Below, one piece after another: positions 6,383 through 15,104 of a stretch of DNA of 29,823 bases. The notes beneath the pieces were generated by a model. That model was not told the DNA's origin and made no database searches. It saw only the letters and a list, made by a program, of their open reading frames with translations. The position numbers and the translations under genes were made by a program. The first letter of the stretch is position 1; every line of letters begins with the position of its first letter. Source of the stretch: a virus; the IMG/VR virus record IMGVR_UViG_3300009503_000090, positions 1-29,823 of that record; one strand, written 5' to 3'.

Positions 6383-7081
6383 ATGAAAGAACAACTTCAA
6401 GAAATAAAAAGGGGTCAAACTGGTACAGGTTTACTACTTGAACGTGACGATTATAATTTTATAAACGCAAATGAAACAAGGGATGCGTTAAAAAAATATC
6501 TAAAAGAAGCTTCTAATAATCCAACAGAAGAAGCAAGTCCATTTATATTTCCAGCTATTTTTCAAAAATATGGAGTTGAAAATGCAAATGGTAGAATATA
6601 TCCTGAACATATTTTAAAAAAAGAGGTTGAACGCTATCAAATTAAAATTGCGGAAAAACAAGCATATGGCGAATTAAATCATCCGTTAAATTCTTCTATT
6701 GATGGTAGTAGAATATCGCATAATATATTGGAACTTAAATGGGAAGGAGTAACATTAGTTGGTAAATTACAATTAATTGTTTCAAAAGCCTATATAAATA
6801 CTGGTTTAATTTGTTGTGTGGGAGATATTGTTGCTCAATTAATTGTTGAATACGGGCTTAAAATAGGCGTTTCATCTCGTGGTGTTGGTTCGGTTGAAAC
6901 TAAAATGGGAAAATTAATAGTTCAAGATGATTATGAAATTATTTGCTGGGATATTGTAACAGATCCATCAACGCCAGGTGCATATATTGGTAAACAATTT
7001 AATGATATTAAAACATATGTTGAAAATAAAGATATAAAATCACAGCTTATTTTAGATAAATTAAATAAAATAATTATATAA
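6383..7081 (+). CDS. Prohead core protease (T4 gp21-like, peptidase family S77)
   Basis: A 232-aa serine protease that matures the prohead by cleaving scaffold and capsid proteins. The conserved features are NANGRIYPEHIL (about 67-78), the catalytic His in YGELNHP (H100) and the catalytic Ser in IGVSSRGVGS (S164/S165). WDIVTDPSTPGA (189-200) is also typical of these proteases. The length is close to T4 gp21 (212 aa). It lies between a terminator/promoter pair and the scaffold gene, the conserved 21-22-23 order, although two unrelated genes and a fragment separate it from the portal. Self-cleavage of the enzyme is expected from the family. Assignment is firm. Confidence 0.92.
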   Translation: MKEQLQEIKRGQTGTGLLLERDDYNFINANETRDALKKYLKEASNNPTEEASPFIFPAIFQKYGVENANGRIYPEHILKKEVERYQIKIAEKQAYGELNHPLNSSIDGSRISHNILELKWEGVTLVGKLQLIVSKAYINTGLICCVGDIVAQLIVEYGLKIGVSSRGVGSVETKMGKLIVQDDYEIICWDIVTDPSTPGAYIGKQFNDIKTYVENKDIKSQLILDKLNKIII

Positions 7082-7210: not shown

Positions 7211-8422
7211 ATGAAGAAAGAAATTAAAAGTGATATTCTAAAAGATTCATTGATAGAAGCAGAAACTATCAGTGCCTTAATGGAAGAAAATACAACCGAG
7301 CTTTTCCGTAATATTGTAACTGAAAGTGTTCAAAAGAAATTAAATCAGTTAATAACTGAAGCAAATGAAGATGAAGACAATAATGATGACGATATTATAA
7401 AAGGAAAAGACGATGATAAAGTGGAAGATATGAATACTGACGATGTTGAAAAATCAGATGAAAAAGACGACGAATTAACTGTTGTAGATGATATAACAGA
7501 TAAAGATTCAATGGAGGGTTCTGATTTAGATTCAGACGAAGATGAATGGTCTAAATTTGATAAATATAAGATAAATCAAGATTCATATGACTTTAGTAAT
7601 GCAAAAGAAGAGGATTTAGCATCCGTGTGGAAACTCTTAGACGATGATGATTTAATTCATTTAAAAAAAATCGGAGACGATAGTTTCGTTCTTGACGATG
7701 AGGAAACTGACAACAAATATCTTATTGATGTTAATAATGAAATGGATTCCGATGAATCGGATGATGATAACTTGGATGATGATATAACTGATGAAAACAG
7801 TGATATGGATGATGATTCTATGGTTGAAATTATCTTAAATGATGAAGATCCTATTTCAGAAGAAGATATTGAAGAAGGTGGAGGAGCTGGAAGACAACGT
7901 GGAGCTGCTGCTAATCACGTGGGAAGTGTTGCTAATGATGGTAAAAATTTACCAGATGGAAGACCTCACAGAGTAGGAGCACAAAGAGTTTACGAAGAAA
8001 TGAAAAAAACTTTAGTAAATGCTTTAAATGAAACTAAAAAAATTAAAGCAGAGGCTATTGCACTTAAAAAAGAAAATGAAGATTTCAAAAAAGTATTGGG
8101 CATATTCAAAAATAAATTATCAGAAGCTGCCATGGTTAATTATAATCTGGGACACATTGTGAAAATTATAACTGAGAATGCTACAACACAAGATGAAAAA
8201 AGAGAAATTGTTGAACGTTTTCAAAATGAAGCTAAAACTATCGCTCAAAGCAAAGCTCTTTGCGAATCTATTTCGGCTAACTTGAAATCTAAATTAAATG
8301 AAAAACGTAAACTTGACACAATATTGACAGCTGAACCTCAAAAAATAAATGAAACTACCATATATCAAGATGATGAATTAAATAAAATTAAAGACATGTA
8401 TAAAAGATTGTCGTTAATTTAA
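7211..8422 (+). CDS. Prohead scaffold/core protein (T4 gp22-like)
   Basis: A 403-aa scaffold protein that shapes the capsid shell and is degraded by the prohead protease. Residues about 50-225 are extremely acidic (long Asp/Glu runs). A Gly/Arg/Ala-rich hinge near 225-255 follows (EEGGGAGRQRGAAANHVG), then a long basic coiled coil from about 260 to the end. The C-terminal part FKNKLSEAAMVNYNLGHIVK, followed by TTQDEKREIVERF, is a recognisable motif of myophage scaffolds. Potential [LI]xE cleavage tripeptides occur near the N-terminus (LIE, LME, ITE). Its position between gp21- and gp23-like genes supports the call; sequence identity to T4 gp22 itself is low. Confidence 0.85.
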   Translation: MKKEIKSDILKDSLIEAETISALMEENTTELFRNIVTESVQKKLNQLITEANEDEDNNDDDIIKGKDDDKVEDMNTDDVEKSDEKDDELTVVDDITDKDSMEGSDLDSDEDEWSKFDKYKINQDSYDFSNAKEEDLASVWKLLDDDDLIHLKKIGDDSFVLDDEETDNKYLIDVNNEMDSDESDDDNLDDDITDENSDMDDDSMVEIILNDEDPISEEDIEEGGGAGRQRGAAANHVGSVANDGKNLPDGRPHRVGAQRVYEEMKKTLVNALNETKKIKAEAIALKKENEDFKKVLGIFKNKLSEAAMVNYNLGHIVKIITENATTQDEKREIVERFQNEAKTIAQSKALCESISANLKSKLNEKRKLDTILTAEPQKINETTIYQDDELNKIKDMYKRLSLI

Positions 8423-8467: not shown

Positions 8468-10393
8468 ATGAGAGAATTTTTAAATTCAGGTCAAGTCGGT
8501 AATATCGAATTGAATGAACAAAAAAGAATCCGTTCTTTAGTTGTTGAACGCTGGGACAAACTTGGCTTCACTGAAGGATTGGAAGGCCAAATGAAAGAAA
8601 ATATGGCCACGCTTTATGAAAATGAAGCAAAAAGTTTGCTTAAAGAATCTACAAATGCAGATAGTTCTGGATCATTTGAAACAGTGGTTTTCCCAATTAT
8701 CCGAAGAGTATTCTCTAAATTATTGGCTAATGATATTGTATCAGTACAAGCAATGAACTTGCCTATTGGTCGTTTATTCTTTATTTTGCCAGTAACTTCA
8801 GAACGTCAATGGACTAATGAGACTTATTCAGCTGATGTTCCAGGCGGTGTGGCTCAAAGTGGATCACATGCTGGATTAATGGGCTATGATCGAATTAATC
8901 GAAATCAAAATAGCGCATATCCTAATACTACTCCCACTGATACAAATCGTTATTATTTGCCAGACGCAGTTATTCCCAATGTGGGAACTGTAAATGCTCC
9001 ACAAGTAACACAATACATGCAAAAAAGTTTATATGATCTGTTCTACAATGACTTTTTGTTTGATCAATCAAAGGGTAAGATTAATATTCGTGTAGCTGCT
9101 ACGGCTGATCCTGTAATAATGAACGGTCCTACTGGTTATAGTAATACTGATCAAAATAATGGAGACATTCAATTTGCTCCCATAAGTGGCGTATATCCCC
9201 CTTCTCCTATTGATGGTACTGTAAGAGCAATTATTTTGAAAGTATCTGGATTTAGTTCATTCAATGCTGGTTTATTAACAGGTCCTGATGGTAATGAAAT
9301 GGATAGTGAAAGTTTCTTAGCATCTTTGAAAGTTCTTAATAATGTAGCTTTTACTGATCCTAATAATAAAGGTTATGCTACTTTTGCTCAATACAGTTCT
9401 TTGCCTTTCCGTTTAGTAACTCAAAAATATGGTCATGCAATTGTAGATACCACAAGTCCTGCTGATGGACAAGGAAATTTATATCTTGAAGTTGATTTAA
9501 GTGTACCTAATGCTTCGGCTGATAATAAAACTATAGATGGTTTTATTGGAGTAGATCCTACTACGGTATTTAATGCATCTACATCAAGTGGAGTAACTTC
9601 TTTCTTGGTAAGCTGGGCACAATATGATTCTTTGGAATTGGAAACTGAAATTGGAGAAGTTTCTTTCAAATTAGATTCTGTTACAGTATCTGTTGAAGAA
9701 AGAAAACTTAGAGCTACATGGTCTCCTGAATTAGCTCAAGACGTTGCTGCTTTCCATAGCATTGACGCTGAAGCTGAATTAACCGCTATTTTGTCAGAAC
9801 AAATTGCTGCTGAAATTGACCGTGAAATATTACGTGACTTACGTAAAGCTGCTCCTTGGCAAGCTCGTTGGGATTTTAATGGATGGAGACGTATGAGTGC
9901 TTTCTCGACCAACTATACTCAAAAAGACTGGAATCAAGAATTGATGACTAAAGTCAATCAGATAAGTGCACAAATAAATAAAGCAACTTTACGTGGTGGT
10001 GCTAACTTTATTGTTGTAAGTTCTGAGGTTAGTGCTGTATTTGACAACTTGGAATATTTCCACGTAACTGATGCAAGTGCTGAAAGTGATCAATACAACA
10101 TGGGTATTGAAAAAATTGGAACATTAAGTGGACGTTATCAAGTTTATCGTGATCCATATTCACCTGCATGGTCTGTTATCATAGGGCATAAGGGAAAGAG
10201 CTTATTGGATACTGGATACATCTATGCTCCATATGTGCCAATGCAACTTACCCCAACTATGTACAACCCATTTAACTTTGCACCTGTTAAGGGTATATTA
10301 ACCCGATATGCTAAGAAACTGGTAAATAACCGTTATTATGGACATATTCGTGTAGATGGTTTGGTTACTTGGAACATTAACGAATTGCGTTAA
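8468..10393 (+). CDS. Major capsid protein (T4 gp23-like)
   Basis: A 641-aa HK97-fold shell protein. The strongest match is the segment ERKLRATWSPELAQDVAAFH, then AEAELTAILSEQIAAEIDRE, which aligns by eye with T4 gp23. The C-terminus TLSGRYQVYRDPY, LLDTGYIYAPYVP and NPFNFAPVKGILTRYAKK is also gp23-like. About 120 residues more than T4 gp23 lie in the middle (about 130-400), probably an inserted surface domain. A likely maturation site is L58-K-E60, before STNADSSG, matching the T4-type [LI]xE rule and the depth of the T4 cut (E65). Codons are GC-richer than in its neighbours, as expected for the most expressed gene. A terminator follows 26 bp downstream. Confidence 0.95.
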   Translation: MREFLNSGQVGNIELNEQKRIRSLVVERWDKLGFTEGLEGQMKENMATLYENEAKSLLKESTNADSSGSFETVVFPIIRRVFSKLLANDIVSVQAMNLPIGRLFFILPVTSERQWTNETYSADVPGGVAQSGSHAGLMGYDRINRNQNSAYPNTTPTDTNRYYLPDAVIPNVGTVNAPQVTQYMQKSLYDLFYNDFLFDQSKGKINIRVAATADPVIMNGPTGYSNTDQNNGDIQFAPISGVYPPSPIDGTVRAIILKVSGFSSFNAGLLTGPDGNEMDSESFLASLKVLNNVAFTDPNNKGYATFAQYSSLPFRLVTQKYGHAIVDTTSPADGQGNLYLEVDLSVPNASADNKTIDGFIGVDPTTVFNASTSSGVTSFLVSWAQYDSLELETEIGEVSFKLDSVTVSVEERKLRATWSPELAQDVAAFHSIDAEAELTAILSEQIAAEIDREILRDLRKAAPWQARWDFNGWRRMSAFSTNYTQKDWNQELMTKVNQISAQINKATLRGGANFIVVSSEVSAVFDNLEYFHVTDASAESDQYNMGIEKIGTLSGRYQVYRDPYSPAWSVIIGHKGKSLLDTGYIYAPYVPMQLTPTMYNPFNFAPVKGILTRYAKKLVNNRYYGHIRVDGLVTWNINELR

Positions 10394-10509: not shown

Positions 10510-12186
10510 CTAAATTTTCATTTCATATTTAAATAATCCGCAATCCCAAATTCGATCATATCCTAGAATTTTTACCATTTCTGTTTCCGTTAAATTGATG
10601 TCTAAATTATATTTTTTAGCTAAAACTTGTTTTCTAAACATAAATTTATGAAATCTTTTGTAGGGATCGATTTTATCATTATAATATCTATAATCTGGAG
10701 ATATTATTTTTGCAAGACTAAAACCAATTTTTGTATATAAATTATTGTCTTTATCTAATGTCCATCGTCTATCTGCAAAACTAACAATTTTTCTAACATT
10801 GTGATTTGTTATTAATTTTTTTATGAAACGGCTACATAACCCTGGAATTATATAATTATAATTTACGGCAAATCGTTTTAAATCCCATACATATTGTTTA
10901 TTATTTATTAAAGTAAAACCACTAGCACCTACTAATTCATTATTATAAAAAGCTCCTATATAAACTGTAGAACTACATTCACCTTGTAAATGATATTTAT
11001 TCATAAATGTTTTAAATTCAATACCATTAATTTCTTTTATAATACATTTTCTAGCGCCTATTTTAATTTTTTTGTCTAAATCTATATGTAATATATATTT
11101 TAGTTTTTCAAATATTAATTGTTTATTATTAATAAATTCATCTTCAAAAATGTGTATTAATGAATAACCAGCTTCATTAGCTGCTAATGTTTTATCTATA
11201 TGATAATTTTTATTTTTTTTACCAAACCATTCAGTGTGCCACTTATTACCATTATATTCAATAGCTAATTTTTTATCTTCTATAAGAATATCTAATTCTT
11301 TACCATTTAATATTGTTCTATCTCCAGAAATTACTTCTATACCATTTAATTCTAAGAAATTTCTTATTTCTTTTTCAGCTAATGAAACATTCGCATACAT
11401 AATATTGTTAGCGTTATTTGCTTTCATATTATCACTTAATTTAGTAAATAATGTATTTGATATATTCTTATAACCGTATTTTTCTTTATATTCAATAAGT
11501 GTTATATTATGCACCGATAAATGTCTCCAATCAATACGTTTTAATTTTTTACCACATATTTCGCATTTGATCCACTCATTTTCATTTTTTTCAAAATCTT
11601 GAATTGCTTTATCTTTTTTAAAAAATTCTATTTCTTCTGGAAACTCTTTTAAATAATCTTCTATTGAAATGTTATGATATTTTAAAAGATGAGATTTATA
11701 AGCTCCTGATTTATTATCAATATCAATTGTTGACCAATTACAATATTTACATTTTTTTGTTTTTTTCATTTCTTTTTTAACTTCCACAATATCATAAAAT
11801 TGTTCATGCCAATATGAGCCATTTAACGCATAATAAGCCCGTCTTTTGAAGCTACTTGGTATTTCCATATCTGGATTCAGTTTTAATAAATAAGCCGTTA
11901 GAGAGCCACTAATATTGGCATAATCATTAAATATTTTTTTAGTTTCTTTATGAATTGCTATATAATTTTTACCATCATCATATTTCTTTATATCTGGAAG
12001 TTTACCATTACCAACAATTGTTTTTCTTTTTACTGTAATTCCATTTTCTTGTAATATTTGTTTAATTTTCTTATGTCCCAAATGAAATATTTCTCCTATT
12101 TTATGAGTTGATATATTATCAATTTGATATAATTTAATTATATTATTAATTTCTTCTTCAGTTATTTTTTTTGTTTTATTCATCAT
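10510..12186 (-). CDS. Homing endonuclease, Vsr-like (EDxHD-type), with zinc fingers and GNAT-like C-terminus
   Basis: A 558-aa free-standing selfish endonuclease, inserted convergently behind the capsid gene. Domains in order: an N-terminal helix-turn-helix (about 8-55, STHKIGEIFHLGHKKIKQIL); a first C2H2-like finger C146/C149/H166/H171; a second finger C208/C211/H222/H226; a Vsr/PD-(D/E)xK-type nuclease core at about 270-350 (KELDILIEDKKLAIEYNGNK with D299 and E310, then WHTEW with H317); and a C-terminal domain (375-558) with an acetyltransferase-like strand pattern (VYIGAFYNNELVGASGFTL) ending in LGYDRIWDCGLFKYEM, which recurs in phage Vsr-like homing nucleases. It has its own host-type promoter (12209-12240). 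The capsid gene beside it is intact, so the element is intergenic. The start is the first of two adjacent Met codons. Confidence 0.85.
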   Translation of the reverse strand: MMNKTKKITEEEINNIIKLYQIDNISTHKIGEIFHLGHKKIKQILQENGITVKRKTIVGNGKLPDIKKYDDGKNYIAIHKETKKIFNDYANISGSLTAYLLKLNPDMEIPSSFKRRAYYALNGSYWHEQFYDIVEVKKEMKKTKKCKYCNWSTIDIDNKSGAYKSHLLKYHNISIEDYLKEFPEEIEFFKKDKAIQDFEKNENEWIKCEICGKKLKRIDWRHLSVHNITLIEYKEKYGYKNISNTLFTKLSDNMKANNANNIMYANVSLAEKEIRNFLELNGIEVISGDRTILNGKELDILIEDKKLAIEYNGNKWHTEWFGKKNKNYHIDKTLAANEAGYSLIHIFEDEFINNKQLIFEKLKYILHIDLDKKIKIGARKCIIKEINGIEFKTFMNKYHLQGECSSTVYIGAFYNNELVGASGFTLINNKQYVWDLKRFAVNYNYIIPGLCSRFIKKLITNHNVRKIVSFADRRWTLDKDNNLYTKIGFSLAKIISPDYRYYNDKIDPYKRFHKFMFRKQVLAKKYNLDINLTETEMVKILGYDRIWDCGLFKYEMKI

Positions 12187-12208: not shown

Positions 12209-12240
12209 CAAATATAACGCTTTTATTTTATAATACCAAA
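12209..12240 (-). promoter_or_regulatory. Bacteroidetes-type promoter of the homing endonuclease
   Basis: Read on the - strand: TTTG (12240-12237), a 20-nt spacer, then TATATTTG (12216-12209). This matches the Bacteroidetes housekeeping consensus TTTG/TAnnTTTG. It starts 23 nt before the first Met codon and is divergent from the promoter at 12278. Confidence 0.7.
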
Positions 12241-12277
12241 TTTATAATATTAATATTCTATAAAAATATTTAAATAA

Positions 12278-12320
12278 TTTGTTTTATAAAAAAAAGTTAG
12301 TATATATATAATATAAAATA
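12278..12320 (+). promoter_or_regulatory. Promoter of the 80-aa gene, shared with the promoter at 4670
   Basis: TTTG at 12278-12281, a 19-nt spacer, then TATATATAATATAAAATA (12301 on). The layout is the same as at 4670-4712, including the 11-nt gap between the two identical blocks. The ATG lies 10 nt past the element. Confidence 0.6.
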
Positions 12321-12330
12321 AAATATAATT

Positions 12331-12573
12331 ATGGAAAATCCACTAGAAAATACAATTGTAATTGTATCCTGTCCATTATCAATGGATAAAAATAAGGTTT
12401 TTAAATTATTACAAGATGATAAAGAATTAGTTGATGCTATAAATTCTTATTCAAAATATATTAAGATAAATGATGATATAGAGACATTTAATAATATTAG
12501 TAATATTATTATAACAGAAAATGGTTATAATATAGCTGTTTATGGCGAAGACATAAAAGGCGTTATAAAATAA
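12331..12573 (+). CDS. Unknown 80-aa protein
   Basis: A solo + strand gene between the homing endonuclease and the kinase-like gene, both on the - strand. The protein is small and acidic, probably an alpha/beta fold: a strand (NTIVIVSCPLS), a helix (NKVFKLLQDDKELVDAINSY), then strands toward the C-terminus (ISNIIITENGYNIAVYGE). I recognise no family. It has its own promoter, the near twin of that before the 145-aa gene at 4722, and a hairpin immediately downstream. The length, the lone orientation and the promoter type fit a small early or accessory phage protein, but nothing in the sequence gives its target. Confidence 0.7.
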   Translation: MENPLENTIVIVSCPLSMDKNKVFKLLQDDKELVDAINSYSKYIKINDDIETFNNISNIIITENGYNIAVYGEDIKGVIK

Positions 12574-12576
12574 AAA

Positions 12577-12612
12577 AAATACTCACAGGTAGCGAATCTG
12601 ATGAGTATTTTA
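12577..12612 (-). terminator. Hairpin terminator at a convergent junction
   Basis: AAAATACTCA (12577-12586) pairs with TGAGTATTTT (12602-12611) around a 15-nt loop. On the - strand the stem runs into an eight-T tract, giving a strong end for the kinase/phoH transcript. On the + strand it lies 4 bp after the 80-aa gene and may also act there, with a weaker T-run. Confidence 0.75.
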
Positions 12613-12669
12613 AAATAGCCATAGCTATAACAGTCCTAATTGAACTTTTAATTTACCGTATATTTATAA

Positions 12670-13314
12670 TTATTTTCTAGCGTAATAATCTGTAAAAACG
12701 CCATTCGTTAAGCCATAATCAATAAGAACAACCATATCAATGCCTTCTCGTTTAACTATTCCATAGGAATTTAATCTTGTAACATCTCCTATTGGCATAT
12801 CATAATCGCCTATTAATGAGGTTAAATCATATAGCCACTCATTGTTATCCATCATTTCTTTTGTTTTTGGCTCAATATACATGTTTGGAGTATTATATTT
12901 TTTAAACATATTATTTAAATATGGAAATAATAAATTAAAATCAAATCCCACTATTTTTTTGAATTGAGAAGGTGAACATCTCTGTGCCAATTCCATTTCA
13001 ACAAACATGCCATTTTCATCTGAATCAAAGCATTTAGCTACTATGGGATAATGATCCTGAAGATAATATTCAGATTCAACATTATTTTGTGCAATTCCTT
13101 TTTGATTTTTTGCCAATTTAAGTACTTTTTCATTATCAATTTTATAAACAATTCTAGCACTTCCAGACGATATTCTTTGCAAATGCTCTTCGCAATACTT
13201 GATTCTACCAGAAAATGATTTTATTGATTTAAATGTTTCCATATTAAAAGACTGTGGATATGGCATTTCTTTTAACATATATTTTATTTGTTCTTCTGTT
13301 ACTAAAATTTTCAT
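12670..13314 (-). CDS. Minimal protein kinase-like protein
   Basis: A 214-aa protein with the catalytic landmarks of the kinase fold in correct order: a short glycine loop GSARIVYKI (51-59), the nucleotide-anchoring Lys in KVLKLAK (K66), a helix-C Glu (E80 or E82), a hinge-like FVEMELA (about 105-110), a catalytic-loop match DVTRLN (D177 and N182, spaced as in HRDLKxxN) and a DFG-like DYG (D199). The His/Arg before D177 is replaced (IGD). It is shorter than typical kinases, with a reduced C-lobe. The N-terminus MKILVTEEQIKYMLKEM is common to a group of hypothetical proteins of Bacteroidetes phages. It lies downstream of phoH with its own TATTTATATAAAA element. Kinase fold likely; substrate unknown, and activity is inference. 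Confidence 0.68.
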   Translation of the reverse strand: MKILVTEEQIKYMLKEMPYPQSFNMETFKSIKSFSGRIKYCEEHLQRISSGSARIVYKIDNEKVLKLAKNQKGIAQNNVESEYYLQDHYPIVAKCFDSDENGMFVEMELAQRCSPSQFKKIVGFDFNLLFPYLNNMFKKYNTPNMYIEPKTKEMMDNNEWLYDLTSLIGDYDMPIGDVTRLNSYGIVKREGIDMVVLIDYGLTNGVFTDYYARK

Positions 13315-13330
13315 ATATATATAATATTAT

Positions 13331-13343
13331 TTTTATATAAATA
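13331..13343 (-). promoter_or_regulatory. Putative late promoter element of the kinase-like gene
   Basis: TATTTATATAAAA on the - strand ends 16 nt before the ATG at 13314. It falls in the 46-bp gap between phoH and this gene and matches the recurrent element. Confidence 0.5.
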
Positions 13344-13360: not shown

Positions 13361-14137
13361 TTATTCATTTTTTTCTAATCTATTCAATATAATATCTATT
13401 AATGGGTGTCTTATGCTTTTTGCATCTTTAAAATCTACAATTCCTATATTATCTATATCTTTCAATGAATTAATAACAGTTACTAAACCAGAATTTTTTT
13501 TGTTAACAACTTTATTATCAATTTGATTCGTATCACCCATAATTATCATTTTGCACCCATCTGATATTCTAGTTAATAATGTTTTCATTTGAGTAGAAGT
13601 GCTATTTTGCATTTCATCTGCTATAACTATACAGTTTTTTAAATTTACACCTCGTAAAAAACCTAATCCTAATATTTCTACAATATTATTTTTCATTAAC
13701 TCTTTTCTATATTCACTACCGATTAATTCATCCATAACCATATAAAAACTAAGCATATATGGATCTAATTTTTCTTGAAGTGTTCCAGGTAGTGATCCTA
13801 ATGTTTCTCCAGCTTCTACTGCTGGCTTTATAAGATATATTTTTCTATAACTATTATCTTTTTGTAGTAGTTCTAATGCTCTACTAACTGCAATATACGT
13901 TTTTCCAACTCCTGATTTTGCAGAACATAGTGTTATGTCATTTTCATTTATAGTCTTTAAAAATTCTTTTTGCTCAATATTTTTACATTTTAAATTTATT
14001 TTATAATTTGTGGCTTTATCAAAAATCATTGCATAATTAATTTGTCCCCCATATCTATTTTCATTATTATTCATTTTATTATTAATAAATTCTAAATCAT
14101 CATCACTCAATTCTTGAAAAATTTTTCTCTTTCCCAT
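13361..14137 (-). CDS. phoH: PhoH-like P-loop ATPase
   Basis: A 258-aa cytoplasmic ATPase of the PhoH family, common in large phages. Residues 53-65 (NIEQKEFLKTI) and the P-loop AKSGVGKTYIAVSRA (73-87) are followed by LIKPAVEAGETLGSLPGTLQ (102-121), LGFLRGVNLKN (158-168), Walker B CIVIADEMQN (169-178) and MGDTNQID (200-207), which is the standard PhoH order. The usual first Gly of the P-loop is Ala73, giving A-x4-GKT. The N-terminal 40 residues are variable. The in vivo role is unresolved: nucleic-acid-linked ATPase/helicase activity and phosphate-starvation links have both been proposed for the family. A TATAAATA box (14157-14164) precedes the gene and the kinase-like gene follows. Confidence 0.92.
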   Translation of the reverse strand: MGKRKIFQELSDDDLEFINNKMNNNENRYGGQINYAMIFDKATNYKINLKCKNIEQKEFLKTINENDITLCSAKSGVGKTYIAVSRALELLQKDNSYRKIYLIKPAVEAGETLGSLPGTLQEKLDPYMLSFYMVMDELIGSEYRKELMKNNIVEILGLGFLRGVNLKNCIVIADEMQNSTSTQMKTLLTRISDGCKMIIMGDTNQIDNKVVNKKNSGLVTVINSLKDIDNIGIVDFKDAKSIRHPLIDIILNRLEKNE

Positions 14138-14156: not shown

Positions 14157-14164
14157 TATTTATA
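14157..14164 (-). promoter_or_regulatory. TATAAATA box upstream of phoH
   Basis: TATAAATA on the - strand, 19 nt before the phoH ATG and just past the terminator at 14179-14214. It matches the T4 late -10 octamer exactly, but in this AT-rich sequence chance is a real possibility. Confidence 0.35.
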
Positions 14165-14178
14165 GACTTTTATAAACG

Positions 14179-14214
14179 AAAAAAAGGTCGAAAAAACATT
14201 GTTTTTCAACCTTT
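14179..14214 (-). terminator. Terminator between the zinc-ribbon gene and phoH
   Basis: AAAGGT-C-GAAAAA pairs with TTTTTC-A-ACCTTT, a 12-bp stem with one mismatch and a loop around 14197-14201. On the - strand a seven-T run follows (14179-14185). The stem overlaps the stop codon of the candidate mini-ORF at 14206-14256. Confidence 0.8.
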
Positions 14215-14333: not shown

Positions 14334-15104
14334 TTAATATATTTTATAACCGCATGATGGACAATACTTATATCCTTTTTTAATAACTTTTTTTCCACAT
14401 GATGGACAATATCTTTTCTCATTATTTAAATCATTAATATTAATAGGCTTTTCAGATATTGGTAAAATTTTATAAAATATAGTAAGAAAAGAATAATATT
14501 CAAAATTATAATTAACTTCATCAAATTTTTGTTCTGATTTCTCTCCTTTCTCAATAGTTCCAGTTTCTTTGAATGCTTTGTTAACATTAGCGTCACATGT
14601 TGTTGTCACATAATGTATACCTCCTGTCGTTTGTGTTATTGTTAAGTATGTTGGATAGTATGTTGGATAGTATGTTGGATAGTATGTTGGATAGTATGTA
14701 TTGGGCGTAATATTAATAGTGTCATTATAAAGATTATTATTAATTTTTTCTTTATAAAAATCTATTTGTACAGCACCATTATTTTTAATGGATTTATCAA
14801 CAATTGAATTATTGTCTTCTACTTTATATGTTGAAAATTGAAATTTATCTGGTGTATCCAAATATCGATCTAAAAATATTCTTTCTCCTGGTCTTAAAAC
14901 AATACCTCTTGATGAAATATTATATCCATTAAGAGTGATTTTTGCCATAACTTTTTCTTTTGTCGGATTAAATAATTCAATCTCAAAATTTTGTTTATCT
15001 TTTAAATAAACTTGATTGGATTGATTAATTTTAACTCTGCCTTTTCCAATTGTGATATATGCAACTGGATTCGAGTTGTTACAACTCACGTAATTTGTTT
15101 CCAT
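14334..15104 (-). CDS. Zinc-ribbon protein with beta N-domain and YPTY repeats
   Basis: A 256-aa protein in three parts. Residues about 14-115 form a beta-rich domain (VYLKDKQNFEIELFNPTKEK, then LRPGERIFLDRYLDTPDKF) that I recall as a conserved N-terminal domain in hypothetical proteins of large phages. A linker carries four tandem YYPT units (about 136-154). The C-terminus is a compact double Cys-pair zinc ribbon, CPSCGKKVIKKGYKYCPSCG. It has its own unit: a TATTTATATAAAA element about 108 nt upstream and a terminator downstream. The linker looks like repeat-generated spacer between two folded ends. Function unknown; a virion-associated or adaptor protein is plausible from the beta domain, but this is inference. 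Confidence 0.78.
   Translation of the reverse strand: METNYVSCNNSNPVAYITIGKGRVKINQSNQVYLKDKQNFEIELFNPTKEKVMAKITLNGYNISSRGIVLRPGERIFLDRYLDTPDKFQFSTYKVEDNNSIVDKSIKNNGAVQIDFYKEKINNNLYNDTINITPNTYYPTYYPTYYPTYYPTYLTITQTTGGIHYVTTTCDANVNKAFKETGTIEKGEKSEQKFDEVNYNFEYYSFLTIFYKILPISEKPININDLNNEKRYCPSCGKKVIKKGYKYCPSCGYKIY
14645..14700. repeat. 12-bp tandem repeat inside the zinc-ribbon gene
   Basis: AGTATGTTGGAT occurs four times in perfect tandem (14645-14692), followed by a partial fifth copy AGTATGTA. It is in frame and encodes the YPTY repeat. The identical copies suggest recent slippage expansion. Confidence 0.95.

Follow-up and report, generated by a model that had tools for sequence, protein, structure and literature searches.

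Phage T7 gp0.7 is a kinase that acts on host proteins; it is made early in the cell and is not packaged. The internal proteins of phage T4 are made with propeptides of 10-19 residues, which direct them to the core and are removed afterwards. In Alt, an ADP-ribosyltransferase, and in IPI-III, the short N-terminal propeptide ends in L/I-x-E, the cleavage motif of T4 gp21 (PMC9026906). Polyvalent proteins, which are thought to be injected with the DNA, include kinases without a C-terminal subdomain (Iyer et al. 2017, PMC5512222), and these kinases are found mainly in phages and prophages of Bacteroidetes and Verrucomicrobia-Chlamydia (PMC5512222). Multidomain polyvalent proteins are thus known to hold truncated phage kinases, and the protein described here is a variant of that kind of kinase.

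The DNA analyzed, hereafter the window, is 29,823 nucleotides long and comprises positions 1 to 29,823 of the IMG/VR virus record IMGVR_UViG_3300009503_000090. It is a T4-like head-gene region with genes for terminase, portal, head maturation protease, presumed scaffold and gp23-type capsid protein, among them the following:

6383-7081, plus strand: gp21-type prohead (head maturation) protease (phrog_207, E = 1.8e-38)
7211-8422, plus strand: presumed acidic scaffold/core protein, between the protease and capsid genes
8468-10393, plus strand: major capsid protein, gp23 family (Pfam Gp23, 4e-72)
8639-8647, plus strand: putative end of the capsid propeptide, L58-K59-E60, followed by S61 (pattern conserved in relatives)

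The acidic protein at 7211-8422 is presumed to be the scaffold from its position and composition, and had no match in PHROG. The presumed capsid propeptides of the window and its relatives end in (L/I)xE before A, S or T, after which comes a conserved SGSFETVVFP segment. The capsid gene is separated from the kinase region by a gene for a 558-residue homing-endonuclease-type protein (10510-12186, minus strand; phrog_3339, 9.1e-83).

A preliminary description of this DNA had reported an ORF of 214 residues with the signature of a protein kinase. The ORF exists, begins with ATG and lies on the minus strand, which that description omitted; K66, E80, E82, D177, N182, D199-Y-G and the N-terminal MKILVTEEQI are all where it placed them. 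The features of the kinase domain are:

12670-13314, minus strand: mini-kinase ORF (phrog_4301, E = 3.7e-12; AlphaFold2 pLDDT 91.1, pTM 0.83)
13153-13170, minus strand: glycine-rich loop, S49-S-G-S-A-R54 (G51 and R54 in 45/45 relatives)
13117-13119, minus strand: K66, the β3 lysine (45/45; β3 is residues 63-68)
13075-13077, minus strand: E80, the helix C glutamate (44/45; helix 71-80)
12784-12786, minus strand: D177, the catalytic-loop aspartate (45/45)
12769-12771, minus strand: N182, where kinases have their metal-binding Asn (variable among relatives)
12712-12720, minus strand: D199-Y-G, the metal-binding DxG motif (D199 and G201 in 45/45; 13 residues remain after the motif)

Conservation was scored over 45 aligned relatives with 28-51% identity to the window protein. 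K66, D177, D199, G51, R54 and G201 are invariant in this alignment and E80 is kept in 44 of 45 sequences, which upholds most of the 'complete catalytic signature' claimed previously; E82, which had been counted as part of it, is not conserved. Similarly, the canonical D-x4-N spacing is present in the window protein, but N182 does not stand as an invariant catalytic residue, its column holding Ser in 23 relatives, Asn in 19 and Asp in 3. Among relatives farther removed, XacN1 for example, the Asn comes one residue later. Conservation across homologues rules out a chance origin of the signature.

The window protein thus has the glycine-rich loop, β3 Lys, helix C Glu, catalytic-loop Asp and DxG of PF00069. 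Because only 10-19 residues follow the DxG motif in all 45 relatives, the protein lacks what is usually the C-terminal half of a kinase C-lobe; in the AlphaFold2 model the activation segment and helices F-I are absent, and one helix (residues 204-210) lies past DxG. This loss, together with the mixed Ser/Asn/Asp column, is what might be expected of a pseudokinase with an ATP-binding or scaffold role and no catalysis. Phages that are otherwise very divergent nevertheless keep the Lys, Glu, Asp and DxG positions all but unchanged, a sign that catalysis has been retained. We therefore consider a pseudokinase very unlikely and predict with good confidence that the mini-kinase is catalytically active.

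When the window protein alone was searched against Pfam, no match was obtained at E ≤ 10, and scans of Pfam, NCBIfam and PHROG gave it no named function. A profile built from six divergent family members matched PKA and other kinases in the PDB (E ~ 1e-4), and four of the six matched Pfam Pkinase, the best at 7.4e-05. The best single sequence match in the PDB was a SteC-type effector kinase, over the glycine loop and β3 region (E = 0.085 and 0.0071); the likeness to these small secreted effector kinases is weak and confined to the N-lobe. AlphaFold2, run with the 45-sequence alignment, returned the strands and helices in kinase order at the scores listed above, with K66 in β3, E80 at the end of helix C, D177 between helix E and β7, and D199 after β8. 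Judged by this order and by the fold matches, the predicted fold would bring K66, D177 and D199 together, as the preliminary description had expected. The Foldseek comparison with kinases and aminoglycoside phosphotransferases, which it had also suggested, found both TTK/MPS1 and APH(2''). The best 50 Foldseek matches in the PDB are all of kinase type (probability 0.9-1.0, E from 7.6e-05). TTK/MPS1, APH(2''), methylthioribose kinase, SAICAR synthase and LicA were matched at E-values of 7.6e-05 to 6.7e-04, with low query TM-scores of 0.30-0.41, and the viral matches comprise many short phage kinase-like proteins, some of them annotated as kinases of phages and viruses. The kinase identity is supported alike by residue conservation, the profile searches, the AlphaFold2 model and the Foldseek matches, and a kinase fold, as read from sequence and model, is almost certain.

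These fold matches do not divide the substrate class between proteins and small molecules; the sequence profiles favor protein kinases. The kinase fold class includes AMP-transferring members, and the protein could be an enzyme that transfers AMP, or that phosphorylates a small molecule in the manner of aminoglycoside or choline kinases, given that Foldseek matches it to APH(2''), methylthioribose kinase and LicA with E-values close to those for TTK/MPS1. APH-type kinases, however, have an H-G-D-x4-N loop and a C-terminal helical substrate domain, whereas the window protein has neither that His nor that domain, and the sequence profiles match protein kinases, not APH. We regard an enzyme of either sort as unlikely; the suggestion in the preliminary description that the putative kinase modifies host or virion proteins is plausible.

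The match to phrog_4301 spans residues 39-212 of the window protein. This family is annotated as of 'unknown function', and its jumbo-phage members (RaK2 ORF356, K64-1 gp473, Munch 046, XacN1 ORF170 and RM378 p120) share whole-domain homology and the same invariant residues with the window protein. By tblastn, the closest named phage was XacN1 (1e-17), with weaker matches in RaK2-like and PBECO4-like phages, Munch and RM378. The named-phage members tested fall in phrog_4301, the jumbo-phage homologues at 2.4e-25 to 3.5e-37, and two named-phage relatives are annotated as protein kinases, K64-1 gp473 as 'protein kinase' and Munch 046 as 'putative protein kinase'. Rhodothermus phage RM378 has two family members, L005 and L093 (RM378 62357-62950). 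A scan of IMG/VR found at least 163 relatives, 80 of which were kept, and a scan of bacterial genomes found only two contigs, both in metagenome-assembled genomes and possibly binned phage.

The window kinase stands alone, and some of its relatives are parts of long proteins. One is a 1387-residue protein (L161:7776-11936) that combines the kinase with a GNAT domain and an Acb1/2'-5' RNA ligase-like domain; in L183 and L184 the kinase is fused with nucleotidyltransferase domains, and in L116 with DUF5824. Such fusions follow the domain plan of the injected polyvalent proteins, a point in favor of packaging. The PF18762 (Kinase-PolyVal) kinases resemble the present family in keeping the active site, losing the C-terminal subdomain and occurring in both stand-alone and fused forms, and their predicted injection is proposed for the window kinase as well. 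Two marks of PF18762 are missing here, namely a conserved Gln in the last N-lobe strand and a conserved His before the Asp with an insert. The last N-lobe strand (residues 104-108) ends in E106-M107-E108, with Gln at 108 in 7 of 45 relatives, and among the same 45, residue 175 is variable and 176 mostly Gly, with no His at either. PF18762 did not match the window protein in the Pfam scan at E ≤ 10; a search of 13 records with PF18762 also gave no match, a weak result as the controls were silent too. Because the His and Gln marks are missing and no PF18762 match was obtained, we do not file the mini-kinase under the polyvalent kinases, although it would work like them.

Probably the most informative part of the protein is the segment that precedes the domain:

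13267-13314, minus strand: leader, residues 1-16 (MKILVTEEQIKYMLKE), capsid-targeting-like (modeled as a helix, with low confidence)
13267-13275, minus strand: L14-K15-E16, putative prohead-protease site (L/I-x-E) immediately ahead of the conserved domain (E16 in 45/45)

Its 16 residues end in L/I-x-E, as do the propeptides of T4-type internal head proteins such as Alt and IPI-III. A hydrophobic residue (L/I/M/V/F) stands two positions before E16 in 43 of 45 relatives. The pLDDT is 60-67 over residues 1-20 and 95 or more just past them; mean pairwise identity is 24% in the leader versus 43% in the domain, and the leaders of relatives vary from 10 to 33 residues. In XacN1 ORF170 the N-terminus reads MKQVRLSQFLSE, followed after the putative cut by APLP. 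The motif [LIV]xE[ASG] occurs within the first ~23 residues of 26 of 61 kinases, compared with 3.9 in shuffled sequences (maximum 8 in 100), and of 305 of 2091 other genes in the kinase loci, compared with 100, a weaker excess; these shuffle statistics overstate independence, since homologous leaders are correlated by descent. Consensus leader-like peptides gave no tblastn match in the phage collection, so that none of the named phages there could be shown to have exactly these leaders.

Some of the evidence speaks against cleavage and packaging. E16 is followed by D or E in 30 of 45 relatives and by M in the window protein, whereas A, S or T follows the capsid site. E16 and Y19 are invariant, and hxE(D/E)YP is retained even when the kinase lies inside a longer protein, so hxE could have a structural role and not mark a point of cleavage. 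The leader is absent from the RaK2-like and RM378 homologues; the RaK2-like members of phrog_4301 are leaderless and have D-x4-N, whereas the clade of the window has a leader and N, S or D in that column. In ~15 of 79 loci, near-identical contigs included, the kinase gene has terminase, portal, capsid or sheath genes close by, in more than one arrangement, which speaks for packaging; in the other 64 it is not near recognized structural genes. The observations against packaging would suit an active mini-kinase that is made and acts inside the infected cell like T7 gp0.7, unpackaged, with the leader serving as a structural or docking helix. Such an account fits less well with leaders that are interchangeable in sequence and length, of low confidence in the model, common to unrelated proteins and terminated by the motif of the phage's own protease; we hold it to be possible but doubtful.

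The leaders on unrelated proteins were found around three kinase relatives (L117, L127 and L132, 16 kb each), where many unrelated ORFs begin with similar segments of the types MKIIITESQ..., MNLQEQIxRIKEMMG... and LTESDLHRIV...; a further type, MKxLIKKLLRESL..., occurs elsewhere. Among the proteins tagged in this way, both there and in other related loci, are a CCA-adding-type polymerase, a GNAT protein, an ART-like protein, a peptidoglycan-binding protein and a HAD-SAK RNA-repair phosphatase. A conserved segment of the scaffold family, EIxxLVKESL, resembles the MKxLIKKLLRESL type. Using a matrix of this segment built from 70 scaffolds, with a threshold of 8 over the first 35 residues, we found N-termini scoring at least 8 in 17 unrelated families, compared with 1-6 for 35-residue stretches taken elsewhere in the same proteins; the excess is consistent, if modest. 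Exchangeable leaders that imitate a scaffold helix and end in a prohead-protease site could form a general code by which large uncultivated T4-like phages load a battery of unrelated effectors into the head, with the truncated kinase as one of them, a proposal that we make tentatively and rate as somewhat short of probable. In the L127 locus, two adjacent small proteins (L127:11677-12225 and 12230-12772, minus strand) have MK-II-TE-type leaders and a glycine-loop-like LGRGAMHKVY...VYKIG; they are possibly a second, unrelated mini-kinase family, and the one member tested had no match in Pfam, NCBIfam or PHROG.

The surroundings of the kinase gene bear on its expression, through the following features:

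12576-12611, minus strand: A+T-rich hairpin and then a T run, candidate terminator after the kinase stop (fold z-score -2.6 for 12560-12625, minus strand)
13361-14137, minus strand: phoH (Pfam PhoH, 3.1e-60), upstream of the kinase gene with a 46-base gap
14157-14164, minus strand: TATAAATA, T4-late-type, upstream of phoH, candidate promoter of a phoH-kinase unit
14183-14214, minus strand: terminator-like hairpin, upstream limit of the unit (pattern scan: 1 found, 0.2 expected)

The kinase gene had been described as lying under a late-type promoter. That claim fails in its original form, because the TATAAATA copy nearest the gene, at 13336-13343, is on the opposite strand. The correctly oriented copy is the one upstream of phoH, which would make the kinase gene the second in a phoH-kinase unit. 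With a hairpin and TATAAATA upstream of phoH and a hairpin with a T run past the kinase stop, the two genes probably belong to the same transcription unit; the downstream hairpin was missed by the terminator pattern scan. The late-promoter idea is itself weak, since the window is A+T-rich and its 33 copies of TATAAATA are only a mild excess over the 21.7 expected. The proximity of phoH, also remarked upon in the preliminary description, holds in the window but not as a general rule: none of 79 relatives has a recognizable phoH nearby, and we rejected the linkage as a functional clue. The protein encoded at 14334-15104 (minus strand) of the window contains a YPTYYPTYYPTYYPTY repeat and has a zinc ribbon at its C-terminus.

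In the course of events that we infer, from activity and late expression through cleavage, packaging and ejection to the target, the protein would be a minimal phosphotransferase of the protein-kinase fold, with a full N-lobe and catalytic loop and almost nothing past D-x-G. It would be expressed late, probably from the phoH-kinase transcript, and its 16-residue leader would dock it to the scaffold core while the head is growing. The gp21-type protease would then cut the leader off after L-K-E16, and the mature kinase (residues 17-214) would be packaged with the DNA and later ejected. In the host, it may phosphorylate host proteins early, an action like that of T7 gp0.7, much as T4 Alt ADP-ribosylates them. 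Head targeting, protease removal and ejection are here read from sequence by analogy with Alt and IPI-III, and no sequence relation between Alt and the kinase domain is claimed. We favor a kinase that travels in the head and leaves it with the DNA, as T4 Alt does, and judge the chances of such packaging to be about even. In the parts of the XacN1 study available to us, a chitinase, a lipase and an M23 peptidase are named as virion-packed, and ORF170 is not named in the text; the leader is absent from the chitinase (ORF272) and lipase (ORF279), the two of these three enzymes compared. The passages covered of the literature on RaK2 and CBB virions do not mention the kinase homologue.

With this analysis phrog_4301, annotated as of 'unknown function', gains a testable function, and the family shows that a kinase may need very little of its C-lobe. 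A head-delivered protein kinase, if the proposed role is true, would be a new activity beside that of T4 Alt. Should the leader prove to be a capsid-targeting sequence, the sequence of a large phage could by itself reveal which effectors it carries as cargo.
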